Of a DNA stretch of 64,000 nucleotides, positions 8,162 to 42,322 are shown in pieces; position 1 is the first letter of the stretch; every line of letters begins with the position of its first letter. The notes below the pieces were generated by a model. It searched no databases, was not told where the DNA came from, and worked only from the letters and a program-made list of their open reading frames with translations. The DNA is from Microbacterium sp. MM2322 (lineage in GTDB: Bacteria > Actinomycetota > Actinomycetes > Actinomycetales > Microbacteriaceae), in NCBI RefSeq assembly GCF_964186585.1, contig NZ_OZ075067.1:124001-188000 (forward strand), given 5' to 3'. A program made the translations under genes and the position numbers.

Positions 8162-9013
8162 TCAGTACTCCTCTGCGACGGGCGCATCGTCCGAGATCGC
8201 GGCCGTCACGCGGCGGATGACGGTGACGTCGCCCGAGACGGTGTTGGCGCGCACGTCGGCGAAGGATCCACTCAGCTCGCCCGCGGTCCCGGAGTAGTTC
8301 GACCCGATCCCGCTCTGCGAACGGTCGATGCCGTCGACCCGGAGCTTGCCGCTCACGGTGCGGAGGGAGTACTTGGCGGGGACAGCCTCATCGAGTCGGA
8401 CGGTGGCGGCACCGCCGACGGTGTTGAAGGAGATGTTCTGCGTGGGTCCCGTCGAATCGATGAGCACGGCGCCGCTGACGGTGTCGGCGTAGGCGGTGCG
8501 GATCGTGCCGACGGCTGTGATGGCGCCCGACACGGCGTTGGCGTTGATGGTCCCGGTGAGTCCACGCATCTGCACGTCGCCAGAGACCGAGTTGGCAGTC
8601 ACGTCGCCCGTGAGGCCGTCGACGATGATGTCGCCCGACACCGTGTTGAGCTTCGCATCGGCCACGAGACCGGCCACGAGAGCACTGGCGCTCACGACGC
8701 CGAGCGTGAGAGCGACGTCGCGGGGGACGGCGATGCTGATCTCGGCCTGCGGTCCGCCGCTGCCGAAGTTGCGGAACGACGCGAGGAAGTTGTCCCAGCG
8801 AAGCTGTGCGTGATCGATCTCGATCGCACCGTCCTGCGCTTCGATGCGGAGTTCCTTCTGTGTCACCGAGTGGACCTCGATGCGAACGCCCGGCTCGTCG
8901 TGGGCGACGACGTCGATCTGACCACCGACCATTCCCACTTTGAGGCGGCGGATGCCGTCGAGATCGATGACGCGGGCCTCCCCGGGCTGAACCAACCACT
9001 TTTCGAGAGTCAT
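8162..9013 (-). CDS. DUF4097 beta-strand-repeat protein
   Basis: This 283-aa protein has repeated SGD/SGA turns (NTVSGDIIVDGL, NSVSGDVQMRGL, NAVSGAITAVG, DTVSGAVLIDS, RTVSGKLRVDG, NTVSGDVTVIRR) that build a right-handed beta-helix-like DUF4097 fold, starting near residue 95. The first 90 residues form a separate beta domain. There is no signal peptide, so it is predicted to be cytoplasmic. The role is unknown. The family is very often co-transcribed with PadR regulators, as here. A ribosome binding site (GGAGA) precedes ATG 9013. Confidence 0.85.
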   Translation of the reverse strand: MTLEKWLVQPGEARVIDLDGIRRLKVGMVGGQIDVVAHDEPGVRIEVHSVTQKELRIEAQDGAIEIDHAQLRWDNFLASFRNFGSGGPQAEISIAVPRDVALTLGVVSASALVAGLVADAKLNTVSGDIIVDGLTGDVTANSVSGDVQMRGLTGTINANAVSGAITAVGTIRTAYADTVSGAVLIDSTGPTQNISFNTVGGAATVRLDEAVPAKYSLRTVSGKLRVDGIDRSQSGIGSNYSGTAGELSGSFADVRANTVSGDVTVIRRVTAAISDDAPVAEEY

Positions 9014-9040
9014 GTTGTCTCCTGCGGAATGAGCGCGAAT

Positions 9041-9083
9041 CGAGATATATCGCGTTGAGAGGAAGATAACACGATATATCTCG
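9041..9083 (-). promoter_or_regulatory. Paired inverted operators (probable PadR sites) upstream of the DUF4097-padR operon
   Basis: Two 12-bp elements are exact reverse complements of each other: cgagatatatcg at 9041-9052 and cgatatatctcg at 9072-9083. Each contains the 8-bp palindrome gatatatc. The similarity extends to 16 of 17 positions (9040-9056 against 9068-9084). The centres are 29 bp apart. The AT-rich tract stands out from the GC-rich surroundings and lies 28-70 bp before the DUF4097 start. Confidence 0.75.
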
Positions 9084-9130
9084 AACGTCCACAGCGGAGC
9101 TCCTCGCTCGCGAGGGTTCCGGGCACGTAA

Positions 9131-9165
9131 GAGGCCCCCTCTACCGCGATGCGGGAGGGGGCCTC
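9131..9165. terminator. GC-rich hairpin terminator
   Basis: There is a perfect 11-bp stem, gaggccccctc (9131-9141) with gagggggcctc (9155-9165), and a 13-nt loop. It lies downstream of the small hydrophobic protein gene on the reverse strand. No T-run follows. Confidence 0.7.
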
Positions 9166-9220
9166 ATGACGCTCCTGGGGGAGAGCGCCGCTGACGCGCC
9201 TGGGGGTGCGCGTCAGACGG

Positions 9221-9379
9221 TCATGTGTTCTTGCGGAGTACGCGCAACAAGAAGGCGATGAGCGCGATGACACCGACGATGATGGCGACCCAGAGCAGGA
9301 ACTGGAGGCCTTCCGTGATGCCACCCACGATCGCCAGGACGATGGCGATCACGATGATGATGATGAGTGCGAGGTTCAT
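9221..9379 (-). CDS. Small hydrophobic membrane protein (52 aa)
   Basis: The reading MNLALIIIIVIAIVLAIVGG then ITEGLQFLLWVAIIVGVIAL then a basic end (RVLRKNT) gives two membrane helices in 52 residues. Similar tiny proteins are common in actinobacteria and often stress induced, but no function is known. The start ATG 9379 follows a GGGAG stretch. A strong hairpin lies downstream (9131-9165). It is divergent from the Rho-N protein and topoisomerase operon. Confidence 0.75.
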   Translation of the reverse strand: MNLALIIIIVIAIVLAIVGGITEGLQFLLWVAIIVGVIALIAFLLRVLRKNT

Positions 9380-9482
9380 TGGAGGCTCCCTCTGTTTGTC
9401 TCCGTTGTCCGCCGGGAGGCGGGGGTGACGCGGGTGTGCGTCTGTCCATTGTTATCAGCGTTCTCTCAGGTGGCAGGGGGGC

Positions 9483-9511
9483 TTGACAGGCTCCGGCAGC
9501 GGTGACATACC
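9483..9511 (+). promoter_or_regulatory. Sigma-70-like promoter (TTGACA-17-CATACC)
   Basis: A perfect -35 TTGACA (9483-9488), a 17-bp spacer and CATACC (9506-9511) lie about 54 bp upstream of ATG 9566. It would drive the Rho-N protein and topoisomerase IB genes. Confidence 0.5.
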
Positions 9512-9565
9512 GTGGCCGCACGCGGGTGATCCCTGCCCGCGCCGACCACGAGAGGCGGGTGCACC

Positions 9566-34006: not shown

Positions 34007-35551
34007 TCAGATGCCGCCGTCGATCGAACGGGGGAGGGAGCTCGTGTCGTCGGGGACGAGGACCGGGGTCTCGCGGTTGAGGCTCTCGCCGCGGAAGAAC
34101 CGCTTCGAGCGCGGGAACAAGAACCACACGACCATGAGGACCACGCCGAGTGCGAGTGCCCCGATGCCGACGACGAACGTCGAGCCGACGCCGAGCAGGG
34201 TGCCGTAGTAGCTGTAGTCCGGGGCCAGCATGTCGATCGCCGACTGGATGAACGCGTACGTGAGCATGAGCGCGCCGATCAGCGGGAAGAGCCCCTTGAA
34301 GAAGAAGTCGCGTGCCGAGCGGAACAGGTCGGCCCGGAAGTACCAGACGCAGGCGAATCCGGTGAGGGCGTAGTAGAACGCGATCGCGAGGCCGAGCGAG
34401 AGGATCGTGTCCTGCAGGATCGCGTCGCTGATCGAGGTCATCACGACGTAGTAGACGCTCGCCACGACCCCCATGACGAGGGTCGAGAACGACGGCGTCC
34501 GGTAGTCGGGGTGGACGTCCTTGAACTTCGCCGGCAGCGCCCGGTAGACACCCATCGCGAGCGTGCCGCGTGCGGTCGGGAGGATGGTCGTCTGCGTGGA
34601 CGAGACGGCGGAGATGAGGACGGCGACGACGAGCAGCCAGCCCCACGGGCCGAGCAGACCATCGCGGATGCCGAGGAAGAAGTCGTCGGCGTTCGCGTCG
34701 TTGGCCAGGCCCGGGCCGTCCTCGCCGAGGCCGGCGTACATCATCGCGGCAATTGCGACGGTGACGTAGGTCACCAGGAGCAGCACGCAGGTGAGGAGCG
34801 CGGCCAGGCCCGGGATGCGCTTCGGATCGCGGGTCTCCTCGTTGAGGGCGAGGCAGGTGTCCCAGCCCCAGTAGATGAAGATCGACAGGAGGATCGCCTC
34901 GACGAAGCCGCCCCACTCGCCGAAGGCGAACGGGTTCAGCCACTGCCAGTCGAAAGCCGTCGCGCCCGGTGCGGAACCGGCGAAGAACTGCGTGAGTGCA
35001 GCGACGACGAAGACGATCAGCGCCAGGTACTGGATGCCGAGAAGGATGTTCTGGATGCGCTCGCCGATCTCGACCCCGCGCCACGAGATCCAGGTCATGG
35101 CGGCGATGAAGGCGACCGCGACGACGATGATCCGCCAGTCGTTCGGCTCCTCGAACTCCTGGCCGAGCAGGGCCCAGAAGTAGACCGAGGCGACCTGGGC
35201 GAGGTTCGCGAGCACGATCATGCCGGCGATCGCGACGCCCCACCCGCCCATCCAGCCGACCCACGGTCCGAACGCCTTCGTCGCCCACGTGAACGCGGTG
35301 CCGCAGTCGGGCACCGCGTTGTTGAGCTCGCGATACGCGAAGGCGATGAGCAGCATCGGCACGAAGGCGATGACGAGCGCGATGGGCGCCTGCCCGCCCA
35401 CGGCGAGGACGACGTAACCGAGCGTCGCGACGAGCGAATAGACCGGCGCGGTCGAGGCGAGCCCGATGACGGTGGAGCCCCAGAGACCGAGGGTCCCCGA
35501 GGCCAATCCCTTGCCGTCCTGCCGGGTCAGATGAACGGGAGTCGTGGTCAC
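34007..35551 (-). CDS. APC family amino acid permease
   Basis: This 514-aa transporter has about 12 membrane helices. The first helix region reads LGLWGSTVIGLASTAPVYSL, a variant of the GxGxI unwound helix of APC carriers, followed by PDCGTAFTWATKAFGPWVGW in TM3. LNEETRDPKRIPGLAALLTC lies after TM6, and SAVSSTQTTILPTARGTLAM is in the TM8 region, as in the polyamine/amino acid branch. GTG 35551 follows GAGGAGG. It is the first gene of a two-gene operon with the saccharopine dehydrogenase-like gene. The substrate is unknown. Confidence 0.9.
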   Translation of the reverse strand: MTTTPVHLTRQDGKGLASGTLGLWGSTVIGLASTAPVYSLVATLGYVVLAVGGQAPIALVIAFVPMLLIAFAYRELNNAVPDCGTAFTWATKAFGPWVGWMGGWGVAIAGMIVLANLAQVASVYFWALLGQEFEEPNDWRIIVVAVAFIAAMTWISWRGVEIGERIQNILLGIQYLALIVFVVAALTQFFAGSAPGATAFDWQWLNPFAFGEWGGFVEAILLSIFIYWGWDTCLALNEETRDPKRIPGLAALLTCVLLLVTYVTVAIAAMMYAGLGEDGPGLANDANADDFFLGIRDGLLGPWGWLLVVAVLISAVSSTQTTILPTARGTLAMGVYRALPAKFKDVHPDYRTPSFSTLVMGVVASVYYVVMTSISDAILQDTILSLGLAIAFYYALTGFACVWYFRADLFRSARDFFFKGLFPLIGALMLTYAFIQSAIDMLAPDYSYYGTLLGVGSTFVVGIGALALGVVLMVVWFLFPRSKRFFRGESLNRETPVLVPDDTSSLPRSIDGGI

Positions 35552-35689
35552 GCGGGCCTCCTCAGAAACGCGAGCCGCTCCCGCGTTCGGGTGCGGCCTG
35601 CGGCATCGGGAGCCGGGGCCCTGCGGGAAAGTTGCCTCACCCTAGCACCGACGATCCCGGGCGCACGAGGGCCGGCGCGCGGCATCCGT

Positions 35690-36241
35690 TCAGGCTGTCT
35701 GGGGCGCCCGTCGTCGCGCCAGCCGGGCCACGCCGGCGGCCCGCAGTCGGTCCGCGATACGGATGCCGGCCCACGTCCCCGCCAGGCAGCTCACCGTGCA
35801 GAGTGCGATGAACAGCACCACGAGCGGCGGGCTCATCGACCACAGGTCGAACGACTGCGCGGCCAGGATCGGGTAGGCGATGCCGATGGCCGCGCCGCCG
35901 ACGTAGTGGAGCCAGGTCGACCAGCGTCGGTAGAGGGTCACCAGGAAGGGGAGCTCGGGGAAGAGCGACCAGAAGACGGTCGTCGCGACCGCGGAGATCG
36001 TCCAGAACGGGGCGAGGACGAGGCCGGAGATGACCCCGACGAGCAGTCCCGCGAACGGGCGGTTGAGTAGGCGCAGAGCGATGACGGCCGGCATGACCCA
36101 GAGGCCCGCGATCGCGACGCTCGCGAACGGGACGGTGGCGAACAGGCCGAGCGACACCCACCATCCGACGGCGAGCACGATGCCCGAGGCGACGCCGATC
36201 GCGGCGCAGGTGAGCAGGTAGGCGGTGGTGATCTTGCCCAT
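35690..36241 (-). CDS. ECF transporter S component (YkoE-like), second copy
   Basis: This 183-aa protein has five to six membrane helices (AYLLTCAAIGVASGIVLAVG, ASVAIAGLWVMPAVIALRLL, FAGLLVGVISGLVLAPFW, LHYVGGAAIGIAYPILAA, LVVLFIALCTVSCLAGTWAG), as in the YkoE branch of substrate-binding S components. YkoE is linked to thiamine or HMP in Bacillus. Here the iron box and the siderophore-interacting protein suggest a different cargo (inference). It is the last gene of the operon, starting 2 nt after the SIP stop. Confidence 0.82.
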   Translation of the reverse strand: MGKITTAYLLTCAAIGVASGIVLAVGWWVSLGLFATVPFASVAIAGLWVMPAVIALRLLNRPFAGLLVGVISGLVLAPFWTISAVATTVFWSLFPELPFLVTLYRRWSTWLHYVGGAAIGIAYPILAAQSFDLWSMSPPLVVLFIALCTVSCLAGTWAGIRIADRLRAAGVARLARRRAPQTA

Positions 36242-36243
36242 GG

Positions 36244-37101
36244 TCAGTGTCCCGTCTGTGCGGTGGCGACCCGGCCGCCGGTGGCGGTGCGGTCGGTGCG
36301 CCAGTACCCGATGAAGCTGATCGCGGCCTTGTCGACGCCCTGCGCCACGAGGTGGCGGCGTGCAGCGGTCGGCAGGTGCTGCTCGCCGACGATGAAGTGA
36401 TGCGCGTCCGGTGTGGGTGTGAGCCGCTCGAGCTCGGCGAGGGCGAGCGAGCCGGGTGCGGCATCCGCGTCGCGCACGAGCCAGCGGACGTCGACGCCGG
36501 CTGGGGCCTCGAAGGCGAGGGTGTCCTCGGCGCTCGGCGCCTCGATGAGCGCGACGCCCGTAGCCGATGCCGGCAGCGACGCGCACACGCCGGCGACCGC
36601 CGGAGCCCCCGTCTCATCGGCGACGAGCACGACCCGCTCCACCCCGCGGGCGGGGTTGAACCCGAGACCCTCGTCGATGATGACGACGCTCTCGCCCGGC
36701 TGCGCGCGCTCGGCCCATCCCGATGCCGGGCCCGCGGCATCCCCGTGTCCGTGCAGGACGAAGTCGACATCGATCTCGGCACCTCGATCGGTGGATGCCG
36801 CGCGGTAGGCGCGCACGGTGTAGTTGCGCATCACGGGGCGGACTCCCTCGGGGATGCGCAGGAACCGGAGGTAGCCCAGCAGACCGTTCGCCTTGGCGGG
36901 GATCCGGTCGAGACCCTCCTCGCCCCCGATCGGCAGGAACAGCCGGAACCACTGGTCGTAGCCGCGGAACGTGAATCGATCGATCTCGCCGCCGCCGAGG
37001 GTGACGCGCATCCAGTGCGGGGCGATCCGCTCGGTGCGTACGACGGTGAGGTGCAGGAGCTCCTGCACCTCGGGCTTCACGAGGGCGCTGGCGCGGGCCA
37101 T
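36244..37101 (-). CDS. Siderophore-interacting protein (FAD ferric reductase family)
   Basis: This 285-aa cytoplasmic flavoprotein is of the SIP/ViuB family, which reduces ferric siderophores to release iron. It shows HWMRVTLGGGEIDRFTFRGY, the FAD-binding RNYTVRAYRA (R-x-Y-T/S) and VDFVLHGHGDAAGPASGWAE, the family signature, then VLVADETGAPAVAGVCASLP, and the C-terminal FIGYWRTDR (Y-W-R of SIPs). It sits between the T component and an S component of an ECF transporter in one operon, an unusual place for it. AAGGA precedes ATG 37101. Confidence 0.93.
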   Translation of the reverse strand: MARASALVKPEVQELLHLTVVRTERIAPHWMRVTLGGGEIDRFTFRGYDQWFRLFLPIGGEEGLDRIPAKANGLLGYLRFLRIPEGVRPVMRNYTVRAYRAASTDRGAEIDVDFVLHGHGDAAGPASGWAERAQPGESVVIIDEGLGFNPARGVERVVLVADETGAPAVAGVCASLPASATGVALIEAPSAEDTLAFEAPAGVDVRWLVRDADAAPGSLALAELERLTPTPDAHHFIVGEQHLPTAARRHLVAQGVDKAAISFIGYWRTDRTATGGRVATAQTGH

Positions 37102-37116
37102 GACGGGTTCCTTCTC

Positions 37117-37923
37117 TTACAGGGTCCAGGGGAACAGGGCGATGAGGACGGCGGCCGATGCGATCCAGAACAGGGCCGTGAAGACGGTGTCGCGGGGGCG
37201 CCAGGGCAGCAGGTACCGCTCGGTGCGGTCGGGGTGGGCGCCGAACGCGCGGGCGTCCATCGCCAGCGCCACGCGCTCGGCGTGACGGATCGCCCCGGCT
37301 AGGAGCGGCACGATGTATCCCCACCACCGGGCGATCGCCGCGAACGGGCCGCGGCCGACGTGCGCGCCGCGCACCCGATGCGCCTGGCGGATGACCTCGA
37401 GCTCGTATCCGAAGCGCGGCACGAACCGGAAGGCGGCCAGGGCCGTGTACCCGATGCGGTACGGCACGCGCAGCTGCTGGACGAGCGCGCGGACGAGGTC
37501 GGGGCCGGTGGTCGTGAGTCCGGCGATGAATCCGAGGGCGAGGATCGCGGCGAGCCGGATTCCCGTCGCGAGCCCGATCTCGATCGCCCCCAGGTACAGC
37601 GTCCAGTCGCCGAGAGAGAGGATCGGCACCGACCGGTCGACCCGCGACGGGTCGGCCCAGAGCGACAGGGCGAAGCCGATGACCGCCGCCCCGACCGGCA
37701 CCGCGACGAACAGCAGCAGCGCGACACGGCCGGTCAGGCGCGCCCCCGCGAGCACCAGAACGTAGGCCAGGCCGAGGAAGACCGCTGGGGTGGCGAGGTC
37801 GCGCGTGAAGATCAGCAGCAGCATCGCCGGGAGCGGCCCGGCGAGCTTGGCGAGCGGACTCAGTCGTGCGAGGAACCCACGCACGGGCGCCCCGACCGCG
37901 TACGGGTCGATCGTCGTGGTCAT
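37117..37923 (-). CDS. ECF transporter transmembrane (T) component
   Basis: This 268-aa EcfT/CbiQ-like protein has about five membrane helices in its N-terminal half. The coupling helices carry the two Ala-Arg-Gly-like motifs, seen as QAHRVRGAHVGRG (about 175-187) and LAMDARAFGAHPDRT (about 220-234), that contact the ATPases. ATG 37923 overlaps the stop of the ATPase gene by 4 bp (ATGA), indicating translational coupling. It would hold either of the two S components encoded in the operon and just upstream. Confidence 0.92.
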   Translation of the reverse strand: MTTTIDPYAVGAPVRGFLARLSPLAKLAGPLPAMLLLIFTRDLATPAVFLGLAYVLVLAGARLTGRVALLLFVAVPVGAAVIGFALSLWADPSRVDRSVPILSLGDWTLYLGAIEIGLATGIRLAAILALGFIAGLTTTGPDLVRALVQQLRVPYRIGYTALAAFRFVPRFGYELEVIRQAHRVRGAHVGRGPFAAIARWWGYIVPLLAGAIRHAERVALAMDARAFGAHPDRTERYLLPWRPRDTVFTALFWIASAAVLIALFPWTL

Positions 37924-39701
37924 CCGAGCGCCGCCTCGAGGTCGGCGAGGCGGGTGAGTCCGGAGAGGGACGGATGCCGCGTCACGCCGCGCAGCGCGGC
38001 GGCGAGCGGCGGCGTCCGCAGTCCCGATCGGTGCAGCAGCGCCTCGTCGGCGAACACGTCCCGCGTGGGGGCGTCGGCGACGATCCGCCCGTCGTCGACG
38101 ACGATCGTGCGGGTCGCATACTCCGAGACGAGCTGCATGTCGTGGGTGACGACGAGGATGGTGGTGCCGCCGTCGTTGAGCCCCCGCAGCAGGCGCAGGA
38201 GCTCGTCGGCGCGGGCGCGGTCCTGCCCGAAGGTCGGCTCGTCGAGCGCGAGGATCGGGGCGCCCCCGACGAGCGCGGTCCCCACCGACAGACGCCGCTT
38301 CTGCCCGCCCGAGAGCAGGAACGGGTGGACGTCGGCTTTGTTCTCGAGTCCGAACCGCGTCAGCACCGCCATCGTCTGCGCGCGGATCTCCTCCTCGCCG
38401 AGGTGCCGGCCGCGCAGGCCGTGGGCCAGTTCGTCGAAGACCGTGTGGGCGATGAACTGGTGCTCGGGGTTCTGGAACACGAACCCGATGCGCTGCGAGA
38501 GGTCGCGGAGTGCCAGGCGCGCGGCATCCGTCCCTGCAACCCGCACGGCGCCGCGCGGCGGCGGGATGACCCCCGCGATCGCCTGCAGCAGGCTCGTCTT
38601 GCCGGCGCCGTTGGCTCCGACGACCGCGACGAACTCGCCGGCCGTGACGGTGAGGTCGACGTCGTGCAGCACCTCGCGCCGGCCGCGGCGGAGGGTGAGC
38701 CCGCGCACCTCGATCACCGGGTGTGCCGAGTGCAGGTCCACGCGCGGGTCTACGCCCTGTTTCGGGACCTCCGGCGGCGCTGAACCTGCACTGGGTACCG
38801 GGGCGTCGGTCGCCTCGAGCATCTCGCGGAGTTCGGTCGGGGTCAGCGGGATGCGGGGCAGGTCCCACCCCGCCCGGCGGAGGGCGAGCGCCGCGGTCGC
38901 GGAGACGGGCAGCCACACCCCGAGCGCGTGCAATTCCTCGGCGCGCCCTCGGAGCACCTCGTCGACGGTGTCGTCGGCGATGGTGCGGCCGGCGGCGTCG
39001 AGCACGACGACCCGGTCGGTGATGACGACGGCGGCGTCGAGGTTGTGCTCGACGAGGAGGATCGATCGCCCGTCGGCGACGACGGCGGCGAGTGCGTCGT
39101 AGACGTCCTCGATGCCGGCGGGGTCGAGGTTGGCGGTCGGCTCGTCGAGGACGAGGAGGTCGGACCCGAGCGCGAGGGCGCTCGCGATGGCCAGGCGCTG
39201 CTTGCCGCCTCCCGAGAGCCGGTCGGGGTTCTCGTGGCGCCTGTCCCAGAGTCCCATCCGCCGGAGCGCATGCTCGGTGCGGGACAGCACCTCGTCGACG
39301 GGACGCCGCAGGTTCTCGGGTCCGAAGGCGACGTCGTCGAGGACCGTGCCGGTGATGAGCTGCGCGTCGGGGTCCTGGAAGACCATGCCGACGTGCGAGG
39401 CGAGCGCAGCCACCGGCGTCGTCGCCGCGTCGAGTCCGGCGACCGAGACCGTGCCGGTGAGCTCGGCGGGCACCGCCTGCGGGATCAGGCCGTTCGTGGC
39501 GAGCGCCAGGGTCGACTTGCCCGATCCGCTGGGACCGAGCAGGAGCACGACTTCGCCCGGCCCGACATCGAACGAGACGGATGCCGGTACCGCCGTCTTC
39601 GCGCCCTCGTGCACGATTGCGACGTCTCGCACACACAGAAGCGCGGGCGGCGTTCCCGGGGCGAGCGGGGCTGCGGCGGCGCCGGAGTCGGCAGAGGTCA
39701 C
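37920..39701 (-). CDS. ECF transporter ATPase, two fused nucleotide-binding domains (YkoD-like)
   Basis: The protein has 593 aa. NBD1 has Walker A GPSGSGKST (about 55), Q-loop MVFQDPDAQLITG, signature LSGGGKQRLAIASAL and DLLVLDEPTANLDP. NBD2 from about 320 has GANGAGKTS, FVFQNPEHQFIAHTVFDELA, signature LSGGQKRRLSVGTAL and LALDEPTFGQD. Both signatures look functional; the first has G-G-G-K in place of G-G-Q-K. The Q-loop text (QNPEHQ) is typical of ECF and CbiO ATPases. The start is GTG 39701. An iron box lies 25 bp upstream, over the -10 hexamer. Confidence 0.93.
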   Translation of the reverse strand: MTSADSGAAAAPLAPGTPPALLCVRDVAIVHEGAKTAVPASVSFDVGPGEVVLLLGPSGSGKSTLALATNGLIPQAVPAELTGTVSVAGLDAATTPVAALASHVGMVFQDPDAQLITGTVLDDVAFGPENLRRPVDEVLSRTEHALRRMGLWDRRHENPDRLSGGGKQRLAIASALALGSDLLVLDEPTANLDPAGIEDVYDALAAVVADGRSILLVEHNLDAAVVITDRVVVLDAAGRTIADDTVDEVLRGRAEELHALGVWLPVSATAALALRRAGWDLPRIPLTPTELREMLEATDAPVPSAGSAPPEVPKQGVDPRVDLHSAHPVIEVRGLTLRRGRREVLHDVDLTVTAGEFVAVVGANGAGKTSLLQAIAGVIPPPRGAVRVAGTDAARLALRDLSQRIGFVFQNPEHQFIAHTVFDELAHGLRGRHLGEEEIRAQTMAVLTRFGLENKADVHPFLLSGGQKRRLSVGTALVGGAPILALDEPTFGQDRARADELLRLLRGLNDGGTTILVVTHDMQLVSEYATRTIVVDDGRIVADAPTRDVFADEALLHRSGLRTPPLAAALRGVTRHPSLSGLTRLADLEAALG

Positions 39702-39726
39702 GGGAGTCCAAACGGGAGGGGTGCTC

Positions 39727-39745
39727 CCAGGTTAGCCTACCCTTA
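39727..39745 (-). promoter_or_regulatory. IdeR/DtxR-type iron box over the -10 of the ECF-SIP operon
   Basis: The 19-bp sequence matches TTAGGTTAGSCTAACCTAA at 15 of 19 positions, including the whole central AGGTTAGCCTA (39729-39739). On the reverse strand it contains TAGGCT (39739-39734), a good -10 for the ATPase gene starting at 39701. It overlaps the stop codon of the upstream S component gene. Confidence 0.75.
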
Positions 39746-40300
39746 CCTGGCGTGGAGGGTCGGTCGTGCGACCCCAGCCCGGCGCAGGCTCGAGCCCACG
39801 CCGAGGCCGGCGGCGGTCCACGCGACCGGACCGAGGATCGAGATCACGAAGTAGGCGATCTGCGCCCAGGTGGGGAGCACCGTCAGGTCGGCGGCAAGGG
39901 CCACGGCCCCGGCGACCACGATCCCGATCACGACGGCCGAGACGTAGAAGCGCCAGCGCCCCCAGGCGCGGTACCGGGTGAGCGCAGCCACACCCTCCTG
40001 GATCGCGCCGAACAGGAGCGCCGTGCCGAGGAAGCGCCAGATCCAGGCCGGGTTGACGGCGCTGGCGACGAGCGCGGCCAGCACGTGCGTCAGGAGAGCG
40101 ACCAGCGGCATCCGGAACACCTGCTGCGCGATGATGCCCGGCAGCACGTGAGATCCGAGCACCGCGCCGTACGCCCAGGGTGCGAACGCGATGACGGCGG
40201 GCGTGACGACGCCGGCGACCCCGCCGAGGAGGCCGGTGGCGACTCCGAGCGCGGCGCAGACGAGCAGCACGCGCGTGGAGAAGACGGGGTGTCGGGGCAC
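39743..40300 (-). CDS. ECF transporter S component (YkoE-like), first copy
   Basis: This 185-aa membrane protein has about five helices (VLLVCAALGVATGLLGGVAG, VVTPAVIAFAPWAYGAVLGS, LVALLTHVLAALVASAVNPA, FYVSAVVIGIVVAGAVALAA, IAYFVISILGPVAWTAAGLG) and the same overall plan and C-terminal ending (GVGSSLRRAGVARPTLHAR) as the S component at 35690 (IRIADRLRAAGVARLARR). The two are therefore paralogues. It has its own leaderless promoter (TAGCCT) and ends inside the iron box of the downstream operon. It may use the same ATPase and T component. Confidence 0.82.
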   Translation of the reverse strand: MPRHPVFSTRVLLVCAALGVATGLLGGVAGVVTPAVIAFAPWAYGAVLGSHVLPGIIAQQVFRMPLVALLTHVLAALVASAVNPAWIWRFLGTALLFGAIQEGVAALTRYRAWGRWRFYVSAVVIGIVVAGAVALAADLTVLPTWAQIAYFVISILGPVAWTAAGLGVGSSLRRAGVARPTLHAR

Positions 40301-40306
40301 GGCACA

Positions 40307-40312
40307 AGGCTA
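40307..40312 (-). promoter_or_regulatory. -10 element (TAGCCT), leaderless
   Basis: TAGCCT on the reverse strand, then 6 nt (tgtgcc), then GTG 40300. No iron box is seen here. Confidence 0.5.
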
Positions 40313-40367
40313 TCCGCGGAGGAGAAGAGGGCGGGCCGTGCAAAACAGCCACATGCCGCTCATAGCC

Positions 40368-40408
40368 GCCCCACTGGTGCGCCAATGTCGGCAGACCGAC
40401 ACTGGGGC
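40368..40408. promoter_or_regulatory. Hairpin or operator upstream of the dioxygenase-like lipoprotein gene
   Basis: tgtcgg (40386-40391) and ccgaca (40396-40401) form a 6-bp stem with a 4-nt loop, nested in gcccc (40368-40372) and ggggc (40404-40408). It lies 20-60 bp before the start and may be a regulator site or leader hairpin. Confidence 0.3.
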
Positions 40409-40428
40409 GAGAGACGAGGAGTCCCGCC

Positions 40429-41343
40429 ATGAACAGTCCCCGCCCCACCGACACCCCCGACGGTCCCGCTTTCGAGGGTCGTCTGCTCGATCGACCCGAG
40501 GACGACGTCGTCGATCAGGGCGCCGCGTTCGACATCCGCACGCTGCTGACCCGCCGGAGCGTGTTCGGTGCGCTCGGGATCGTCGCCGGCGCGGCGGTGC
40601 TCGCCGCCTGCACCCCGCGCGGGTCGACCGTGCCGGCGACCTCGGCCGCGGCATCCCCCTCCGTCGCCCCCTCAGCCCCGGCAGCGAGCGCTGACGCCGC
40701 GCTGCCGGCCGGCGAGATCCCGGAGGAGACCGCGGGCCCGTACCCCGGCGACGGCTCGAACGGGCCCGATGCGCTCGAACGCGCCGGGGTGGTGCGCAGT
40801 GACCTCCGCAGCGACATCGGCGGCGGCGAGTCGGTCGCGGGCGTCGCCCTCACCTTCACGCTGCGCCTCACCGACATGGCGCAGGCCGATCGCCCGCTCA
40901 CCGGCGCCGCCGTCTACGCGTGGCAGTGCGACGCGGAGGGGCGCTACTCGATGTACACGAGCGGGGTCGAGGACCGCTCGTGGCTCCGCGGCGTCCAGGT
41001 GACGGATGCCGACGGCCAGGTCACGTTCACCTCGATCGTCCCGGGCTGCTACCCCGGCCGGTGGCCGCACATCCATTTCGAGGTCTACCCCGACGAGGCG
41101 TCGATCACCGACGCGGGTACGGCGATCGCCACCTCGCAGCTGGCGTTCCCCGCCTCGGTGGCGGACGCGGCCTACGCGCAGGACGGATACGGCGATTCGG
41201 CACGCAACCTGTCGCGGCTCTCGCTCGATTCCGACATGGTCTTCGGCGACGACGGAGGCGCGCTCCAGCTCGCCACCGTGACGGGCAGTGCCGGAGCGGG
41301 CTACGCCGCAAGCCTCGCGGTGCGCATCGACGCGACGACCTGA
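40429..41343 (+). CDS. Exported lipoprotein of the intradiol ring-cleavage dioxygenase family
   Basis: The 304-aa product has a Tat-like, twin-Arg and lipobox leader (LTRRSVFGALGIVAGAAVLA then AC at about residue 64), so it is probably anchored outside the membrane. The mature part has a Ser/Ala/Pro linker, EETAGPYPGDGSNGP (first iron Tyr region), GAAVYAWQCDAEGRYSMYT, and CYPGRWPHIHFEVY with the Tyr and His-x-His iron ligands of protocatechuate-type dioxygenases. Members exported in this way are common in actinobacteria. No aromatic pathway genes are nearby. The ribosome binding site is GACGAGGAG. Confidence 0.87.
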   Translation: MNSPRPTDTPDGPAFEGRLLDRPEDDVVDQGAAFDIRTLLTRRSVFGALGIVAGAAVLAACTPRGSTVPATSAAASPSVAPSAPAASADAALPAGEIPEETAGPYPGDGSNGPDALERAGVVRSDLRSDIGGGESVAGVALTFTLRLTDMAQADRPLTGAAVYAWQCDAEGRYSMYTSGVEDRSWLRGVQVTDADGQVTFTSIVPGCYPGRWPHIHFEVYPDEASITDAGTAIATSQLAFPASVADAAYAQDGYGDSARNLSRLSLDSDMVFGDDGGALQLATVTGSAGAGYAASLAVRIDATT

Positions 41344-41350
41344 CGGCGGG

Positions 41351-42322
41351 TCAGGGTCGCCGGCGACGCTTGGTGAGCCGGACGGTCGGCAGCGGCGGTG
41401 CGGGGATCCGCTCGTCGCCGTGGGTGACGACGTGACCGAACCGCGGCGCGTCCGCCTCCCACTCCTCCCGTGCCGACACGATCTCTTCGTGGCTGCGACC
41501 GACGAAGTTCCACCACATGACGATGTCGCTCTCGAACGGTTCGCCGCCGAGCACGAAGACCGTGACATCGGTCGGAGCCTCGATCTCGATGTTCTCGCGT
41601 GCGAGACCGAGGTAGAGCAGATCGTGATCGCCGAGCGCGACCGGCTCGTCGCCGGCATGGACCAGGGGTGAGCCGTCGACCCCGACGATCGCGTGCTCCC
41701 AGGCCGGGTTCAGGGGGATCCGGATGCGCGCCCCGGCGGGGATGTAGACCTCGGCCCCGACGATCGGCGTGTACATGGTGGCGGGTGAATGGATGCCGGC
41801 GAGCTCACCGACCACGACGACGGCCGCCGCTCCCTCGCCGAGGTCCACGATCGGGAGGTCCGTGTGGCGCTCGAAGTCGGGCTCGCCGTGTCGCCGCGAC
41901 TCGGGGAGCGCCACCCACAGCTGGAGGGCGTCGGTCACGGTGGGCTCGTCGCCCATGGAGTACTCCGAGTGCGCGATCCCGGCGCCGCTCGTCATGATGT
42001 TCAGCTGGCCGCGCTTGATGACGACGTCGGAGCCGATCGCGTCGCGGTGGCGGGTCTCGCCCGCGAACGGCCACGTGACCGTCTGCAGGCCGATGTGCGG
42101 GTGGGGTTCCACGCGCATCGTCGTCACCTGCGGCCCGAAGCGGTCGAGGAAGCACCAGGCTCCGACCATCGGCAGCTCGCGCTGCGGCAGGGCGCGGTGC
42201 ACCTGCATGCCGCGGACGCCCCCGAGGGGGACCTCCCGTGCGGTGAGCAGGAGGGAGCGTGGCCCGTCGCAGGCCGTCGGGGCGTCGACCGATTCGGTCG
42301 GGTCGGCGTCGAGGCGCGTCAT
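41351..42322 (-). CDS. Pirin family protein
   Basis: This 323-aa bicupin has the pirin metal site in FGPQVTTMRVEPHPHIGLQT and RHRDAIGSDVVIKRGQLNIM, followed by TSGAGIAHSEYSMGDE and LQLWVALPESRRHGEPDFE. The C-terminal domain (GGEPFESDIVMWWNFVGRSH) is the long pirin form. Bacterial pirins are metal enzymes with quercetinase activity or regulators; which one applies is not visible. It lies 3 nt downstream of the small acetyltransferase gene and is convergent with the dioxygenase-like gene. Confidence 0.92.
   Translation of the reverse strand: MTRLDADPTESVDAPTACDGPRSLLLTAREVPLGGVRGMQVHRALPQRELPMVGAWCFLDRFGPQVTTMRVEPHPHIGLQTVTWPFAGETRHRDAIGSDVVIKRGQLNIMTSGAGIAHSEYSMGDEPTVTDALQLWVALPESRRHGEPDFERHTDLPIVDLGEGAAAVVVVGELAGIHSPATMYTPIVGAEVYIPAGARIRIPLNPAWEHAIVGVDGSPLVHAGDEPVALGDHDLLYLGLARENIEIEAPTDVTVFVLGGEPFESDIVMWWNFVGRSHEEIVSAREEWEADAPRFGHVVTHGDERIPAPPLPTVRLTKRRRRP

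Follow-up and report, generated by a model that had tools for sequence, protein, structure and literature searches.

What does an energy-coupling factor (ECF) transporter carry if its substrate-binding (S) components resemble the vitamin-binding protein YkoE, an iron box precedes its ATPase gene and its operon contains a gene for a ferric-siderophore reductase? This question is raised by a locus on the minus strand (40300-35690) of a 64,000-nucleotide stretch of the genome of Microbacterium sp. MM2322 (contig NZ_OZ075067.1, positions 124,001 to 188,000), which we call the window and whose coordinates are used throughout. The locus encodes, in this order, a first S component (S1), a fused double ATPase (EcfA), the T component EcfT, a siderophore-interacting protein (SIP) and a second S component (S2). 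ECF transporters are known mainly for the uptake of vitamins, nickel and cobalt. Judged by sequence comparison, the locus appears to code for a YkoE-type ECF importer which has passed from vitamin to iron control. In our reading, the importer belongs to group I, is induced by iron starvation and takes up a ferric chelate, most likely a xenosiderophore. We give this reading a probability of roughly 0.55; its regulatory part is strong on the comparative evidence, and its cargo part is a good hypothesis.

The original prediction of an operon for a double ATPase, a T component, a SIP and S2, with S1 upstream, was confirmed in all parts by domain searches. The S1 gene (39743-40300) codes for a YkoE-like protein of 185 aa (PF09819, 1.4e-9) and is followed by the gene for EcfA (37920-39701, 593 aa, GTG start), which contains two ATPase domains matching TIGR04520 and TIGR04521, both above cut-off, and two ABC_tran stretches. 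EcfT (37117-37923, 268 aa) belongs to the CbiQ family (1.4e-25) and possesses the Arg-rich coupling region, with R179, A181, R185, G186, D223 and R225 invariant in 13 aligned rows. Next come the SIP/ViuB-type, flavin-dependent ferric-siderophore reductase (36244-37101, 285 aa, FAD_binding_9 6.6e-28, SIP 7.3e-27) and the YkoE-like S2 (35690-36241, 183 aa, PF09819 6.6e-12), which is 32% identical to S1. The start codons of EcfT and S2 are our choice within longer open frames. With these starts, the EcfA and EcfT genes overlap by 4 bases, and the stop codon of SIP and the start of S2 are 2 bases apart. Because ECF ATPases, an EcfT coupling region and, as far as predicted models tell, the S-component fold are encoded within one module, we assign the transporter to group I. 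Among the matches listed, the nearest named locus is that of M. oleivorans NBRC 103075, with an EcfT identity of 96%.

The IdeR/DtxR-like iron box, TAAGGGTAGGCTAACCTGG (39727-39745, minus strand), overlaps the stop codon of S1, ends 25 bases before the start of EcfA and scores 22.2 bits with a matrix derived from the own genome. By eye, it matches 15 of the 19 positions of TTAGGTTAGGCTAACCTAA, which we take to be the IdeR/DtxR consensus, just as had been claimed, and 16 of 19 positions of the degenerate pattern TWAGGTWAGSCTWACCTWA. A search of the genome, a single contig of 3.09 Mb, for the latter pattern with at most three mismatches yielded seven sites, and the backwards control pattern yielded none. 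Four of the six other sites lie beside genes for siderophore-type binding proteins (Peripla_BP_2) and one beside an FTR1 iron permease gene; the sixth (L130:7612) is located away from recognisable iron genes, with a PEMT-type gene about 330 bp further on. The genome contains two matches to the DtxR family (PF02742). As no sigma-70-like promoter was found in 35400-40500, the claim that the box covers the -10 region of EcfA is unsupported. Since S1 lies upstream of the box, the unit which the box can control comprises only EcfA-EcfT-SIP-S2; the proposed iron-box control of an ECF transporter with two S components is supported for this unit and does not extend to S1.

For the comparison with relatives, the matrix was built solely from the six other IdeR-like sites of the own genome, leaving out the window box, and applied to 36 EcfA-EcfT operons, namely that of the window and those of 35 relatives from the order; the region scored was the 300 bp preceding EcfA or, where an S gene comes first in the operon, preceding that gene. 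Sites of at least 11 bits were present at 35 of the 36 operon heads as compared to 3 of 1798 background windows drawn from these loci, and sites of at least 13 bits at 31 heads and in no background window. Dropping the unclear training site from the matrix still left 35 passing heads, while 200 column-permuted matrices reached at most 4 of 36 heads at matched stringency. A second set consisted of 80 named loci out of 431 EcfT relatives, mostly from Microbacterium and with genomes partly shared with the first set; here, 68 of 74 testable EcfA heads scored at least 11 bits, compared to 7 of 3512 windows. The genomes in these counts are related, and the counts are not numbers of independent events. 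The promoter scan with an IdeR matrix that had been proposed as a check was therefore positive in both sets, and we rejected a chance box on the counts of both sets and the permuted-matrix controls. The comparison indicates that the box is conserved at the operon heads; it strongly supports iron-box control, by which IdeR would bind and repress. Operons with a box also occur in Agromyces-type genomes and in three further families (f7, f9 and f12), and the S proteins encoded there share 31-43% identity with S2. Ten canonical YkoE-EcfA-EcfT loci from more distantly related members of the class provided a contrast: in no case did one of the three top-scoring sites of a locus lie at the operon head.

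Counting the 68 complete loci of the second set, we found 37 with both SIP and S2, 10 with SIP only, none with S2 only and 21 with neither (p 2e-10; kinship ignored). A box of at least 11 bits was present in all 47 loci with SIP as compared to 15 of the 21 without it (p 5e-4; kinship ignored). All six boxless loci lack SIP, which hints that box and SIP were lost or gained together. Of 396 genomes of the order, 83 contain relatives of the SIP at a threshold of 1e-35. All 18 stand-alone SIP orthologues which we fetched (L254-L271) have a site of at least 15.8 bits no more than about 150 bp upstream of the SIP match, and no EcfT or S gene was found near these 18 places. With boxes of their own in front of stand-alone genes, SIPs seem to belong to the iron regulon by themselves and to have joined the ECF operon in some lineages. 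The embedding of SIP in the ECF operon therefore stood as predicted in 47 of the 68 complete loci but turned out to be optional, and SIP as a fixed ECF partner was rejected because it is missing from the other 21 and has orthologues standing alone elsewhere. Its position in the operon supports an iron-related cargo without proving a shared one. SIP/ViuB proteins act on ferric siderophore complexes and reduce them. The sequences in the PDB closest to the operon SIP are siderophore-interacting proteins, and IrtA also matches it (8.4e-6); the genome carries three further SIP genes that share about 30% identity each with the one in the operon. A SIP tree joining the ECF-linked SIPs (96/98) was not relied on because it contained only three outgroup rows, all on long branches, and omitted the stand-alone orthologues. 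In two loci (L146 and L151), the SIP appears as two adjacent matches, which may point to a broken or frameshifted gene. Two of the stand-alone SIP genes (L255 and L256) are directly followed by a gene for a mycothiol-S-transferase.

Whether the S components might still serve thiamine was addressed at the levels of regulation, fold and binding pocket. An Rfam scan of the window gave no family at threshold and thus no thiamine pyrophosphate (TPP) riboswitch, as already noted in the original prediction, and none was found in seven relatives scanned. The single TPP riboswitch match of the genome sits directly at a canonical YkoE gene elsewhere, whose product also belongs to PF09819, and ThiC is absent from the genome; the vitamin need is therefore plausibly covered by this canonical YkoE. 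AlphaFold models of S1 and S2 (pLDDT 91.6 and 92.8) matched YkoE of Bacillus subtilis (PDB 5edl) with template modelling scores of 0.81 and 0.82, respectively, and this was the only PDB hit below an E value of 0.001 for either model. By sequence, S1 found no PDB chain at E 1 and S2 found only 5edl at E 0.025. Thiamine is contacted in YkoE by Trp49, Glu77, Gln95, Asp131 and Tyr46, and the Q95W exchange abolishes its binding, as described in excerpts of PMC5037267. Gln95 is missing in all 58 aligned S sequences (one of them, L121, is frame-broken), its position being taken by Trp in 7 of 8 S2 proteins of the genus (Trp91 in the window) and by Phe or Ile in each of the 18 S1 proteins of the genus. 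The position of Trp49 is occupied by His in all 18 S1 proteins of the genus, including that of the window, and His51 and His72 of S1 are invariant in the same 18 aligned rows. The S proteins thus look like YkoE-fold subunits with a pocket ill-suited to thiamine, which is disfavoured as a cargo.

From the computed gene content, head-box conservation, pocket-residue loss and YkoE fold and from the separate riboswitch-controlled YkoE, we infer the following mechanism. With plenty of iron in the cell, iron-loaded IdeR would occupy the box ahead of EcfA and repress EcfA-EcfT-SIP-S2. In iron-limited cells, the motor of EcfA and EcfT would be made together with S2; S1, whose transcription would start further upstream, could use this motor too. 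A ferric chelate, most likely a xenosiderophore, would be captured outside the cell by S1 and S2 and carried in by the motor; SIP, using FAD and NAD(P)H, would then reduce the ferric complex in the cytosol and thereby free the iron. One related operon bears on iron by other means: in L107:2243-9076 (minus strand), a box-led S-EcfA-EcfT series runs into genes for two ATP-binding cassette (ABC) half-transporters without a SIP domain, the first of which has IrtA as its best PDB match (3.9e-121), while for the second, eukaryotic P-glycoprotein types outscore the best bacterial hits, IrtB and YbtQ. The odds seem about even that a PF09819 branch in Actinobacteria left vitamin transport and gave rise to a class of IdeR-controlled ferric-siderophore ECF importers, equipped with a cytosolic SIP and, in one lineage, an IrtAB-like ABC pair; members of this branch were found in Microbacterium, in Agromyces-type genomes and in three further families.

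Several observations weigh against the import of a ferric chelate under iron control. As to the box, the operon of L118, the sole failure among the 36, has no good head site (8.3 bits), and six of the 74 heads of the second set (L139, L170, L171, L180, L204 and L209) are without a good box; these six are complete Microbacterium loci which consist of S1-EcfA-EcfT only and lack SIP. Two of the canonical YkoE loci do carry sites away from the head, at 13.4 bits about 0.5 kb behind EcfT in L243 and at 10.5-11.9 bits in L250. Sites of at least 11 bits precede S1 in only 4 of 66 loci and the pirin gene further upstream (see below) in none of 64; with no box before S1 as a rule, S1 is probably under a control of its own and would use the shared motor. 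The 11 loci with solitary S genes (S1-like or S2-like) in Agromyces-type genomes have no box either. As to SIP, 21 of the 68 complete loci have S1-EcfA-EcfT alone, and the genus relative L080, which is not among the 68, has S2 but no SIP in its operon, its SIP gene being located elsewhere in the genome. Operons without SIP or box in close relatives had been named beforehand as evidence against the idea, and they exist in part: 15 of the 21 SIP-less loci keep the box, and boxless heads of the second set are confined to the six mentioned. Moreover, the stand-alone SIPs may be pooled reductases, so that co-location need not mean a shared cargo. As to the pocket, Trp49 is kept in all eight S2 proteins of the genus, and the canonical YkoE of the own genome, used as a control, retains Trp49 and Gln95 but lacks Tyr46 and Glu77, which makes the loss of the pocket a matter of degree. 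Finally, the evidence on the cargo is indirect; no siderophore synthesis gene was found among the neighbours examined, and siderophore synthases of the IucA/IucC type are absent from the genome (non-ribosomal peptide synthetases were not searched). Together with the Peripla_BP_2 genes at four of the boxes, however, the lack of IucA/IucC fits the use of foreign siderophores, and a ferric chelate is a plausible cargo.

One of two serious rivals is an iron-sparing import of nutrients, in which IdeR would induce the uptake of an organic cofactor or precursor that the cell makes with the help of Fe-S enzymes, and SIP would merely be co-transcribed as a further member of the iron regulon. We consider it unlikely on the whole, but it gains from the box being kept in 15 of the 21 complete SIP-less operons, from the SIPs standing alone with their own boxes in other genomes, by which the co-location may be incidental, and from the vitamin bound by the characterised YkoE of B. 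subtilis (excerpts of PMC5037267). Its simplest form, the sparing of ThiC, is excluded in this genome, which contains no ThiC, has a riboswitch-controlled YkoE elsewhere and codes for S proteins that have lost the pocket residues; the IrtA-like and the second half-transporter in the operon of L107 also count against this rival.

The other rival, likewise unlikely, is a haem importer, in which S1, S2 or both would capture haem in the manner of LhaS, the two His residues of S1 would ligate the iron and SIP would provide electrons for the release or breakdown of haem. A precedent exists in LhaSTA, the iron-regulated haem ECF transporter of Staphylococcus lugdunensis, whose LhaS has a spectrum suggesting His-ligated haem according to excerpts of PMC7299338. 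The His at the Trp49 position in 18 of 18 rows of the genus and the second invariant His of S1 would suit such a role, but the box-led S2 has no pocket His. No HemO-type haem oxygenase was found in the genome (IsdG and HugZ types were not searched), and ferric siderophores are the substrates of the SIP/ViuB family. A gene for an HbpS-like 'haem-degrading domain' protein of about 160 aa (L088:11556-12041, plus strand) lies 1.3 kb after an ECF-linked SIP, but it occurs in this locus only, and the family name is loose.

An IdeR-controlled importer of a free metal or a non-iron metallophore (Mn or Co) is very improbable: EcfT belongs to the CbiQ family and Pfam names PF09819 a cobalt permease component, but S1 and S2 match PF09819 and no CbiM/NikM-type family, SIPs reduce ferric complexes, and the same box stands at the genes for siderophore-binding proteins and FTR1. 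An ordinary YkoEDC transporter restricted to thiamine or hydroxymethylpyrimidine with a chance iron-box match, to which the PF09819 family and the YkoE fold would be suited, is hardly credible and was rejected on the loss of Gln95 and other pocket residues, the absence of a TPP riboswitch from the window and seven relatives, its location at the canonical YkoE, the absence of ThiC and the box at 35 of 36 operon heads.

Returning to the ferric chelate as the preferred cargo, the original prediction had called it an unusual class for ECF transporters, a view which is qualified by precedents in LhaSTA (haem) and probably eqbHIJ. With YkoEDC of B. subtilis, the window locus shares PF09819, the fold of S1 and S2 and an own EcfA-EcfT pair beside the S genes; unlike YkoEDC, it has an iron box instead of a TPP riboswitch, adds SIP and a second S component, lacks Gln95 and has His for Trp49 in S1. 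As far as the excerpts describe LhaSTA, it resembles the window locus as an iron-regulated ECF importer serving iron acquisition and differs from it in having a Fur box rather than an IdeR-type box and haem as its cargo; the excerpts make no mention of a SIP, and the likeness is drawn from this published description. The equibactin locus of Streptococcus equi, as described in excerpts of PMC3672683, has a DtxR-like regulator and contains eqbHIJ, a putative three-gene ABC importer needed for siderophore-dependent 55Fe import, beside the YbtPQ/IrtAB-like eqbKL; the term ECF is not applied to eqbHIJ in these excerpts. A related cluster of Clostridioides difficile is described in an excerpt of PMC6814731 as consisting of an ABC ATPase, an Ecf 'cobalt' transporter and a membrane protein, and by this description, rather than by sequence, eqbHIJ is probably an ECF transporter as well. 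DtxR-type control, predicted for the window locus, would be common to it and eqbHIJ, and the box-led operon of L107 has similar IrtAB-like company, whereas the siderophore synthesis genes of the equibactin locus have no counterpart at the window locus. The mycobactin importer IrtAB is likewise coupled to a SIP-family reductase, but it is an exporter-fold ABC transporter with a fused reductase, in contrast to an ECF transporter with a separate SIP.

No IdeR-controlled YkoE-type ECF transporter with a SIP was found in the titles and abstract starts listed by searches of the open-licence PMC literature. If the proposed reading is true, it extends the range of ECF transporters to iron chelates in a common group of soil- and plant-associated bacteria and provides a route of xenosiderophore uptake without a solute-binding protein. 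It would also assign a function to many genes named only 'ECF transporter S component', predict that the eqbHIJ importer is an ECF transporter and offer S proteins for studying the change of a pocket from thiamine to a metal chelate.

Further upstream of the box-led unit in the window lie an intradiol-dioxygenase-like gene (40429-41343, plus strand) and a pirin gene (41351-42322, minus strand). Of 159 loci searched, in sets that overlap, 66 have pirin as a neighbour upstream of the operon on the same strand, and in 40 of these the pirin and S1 matches are 49-219 bp apart; an intradiol-dioxygenase-like gene between the two was found in none of the 66. Solitary S1-like genes with the pocket His and with neither EcfT nor an iron box nearby were detected in L095, L097, L101-L106 and L110; their products may share a distant EcfA-EcfT such as those of L247 or L248, whose boxes score 23.4 and 17.0 bits, respectively. 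In four loci with solitary S genes examined, the neighbours were MobA-like, ABC or IMPDH genes. The operon relatives examined outside the genus, tried as a clue to the cargo, have mixed neighbours, among them a DrrA/ABC-2-type pair in L115. In L123, a gene for an iron/manganese superoxide dismutase (8845-9534, plus strand) is located divergently beside the S gene heading a box-led operon.

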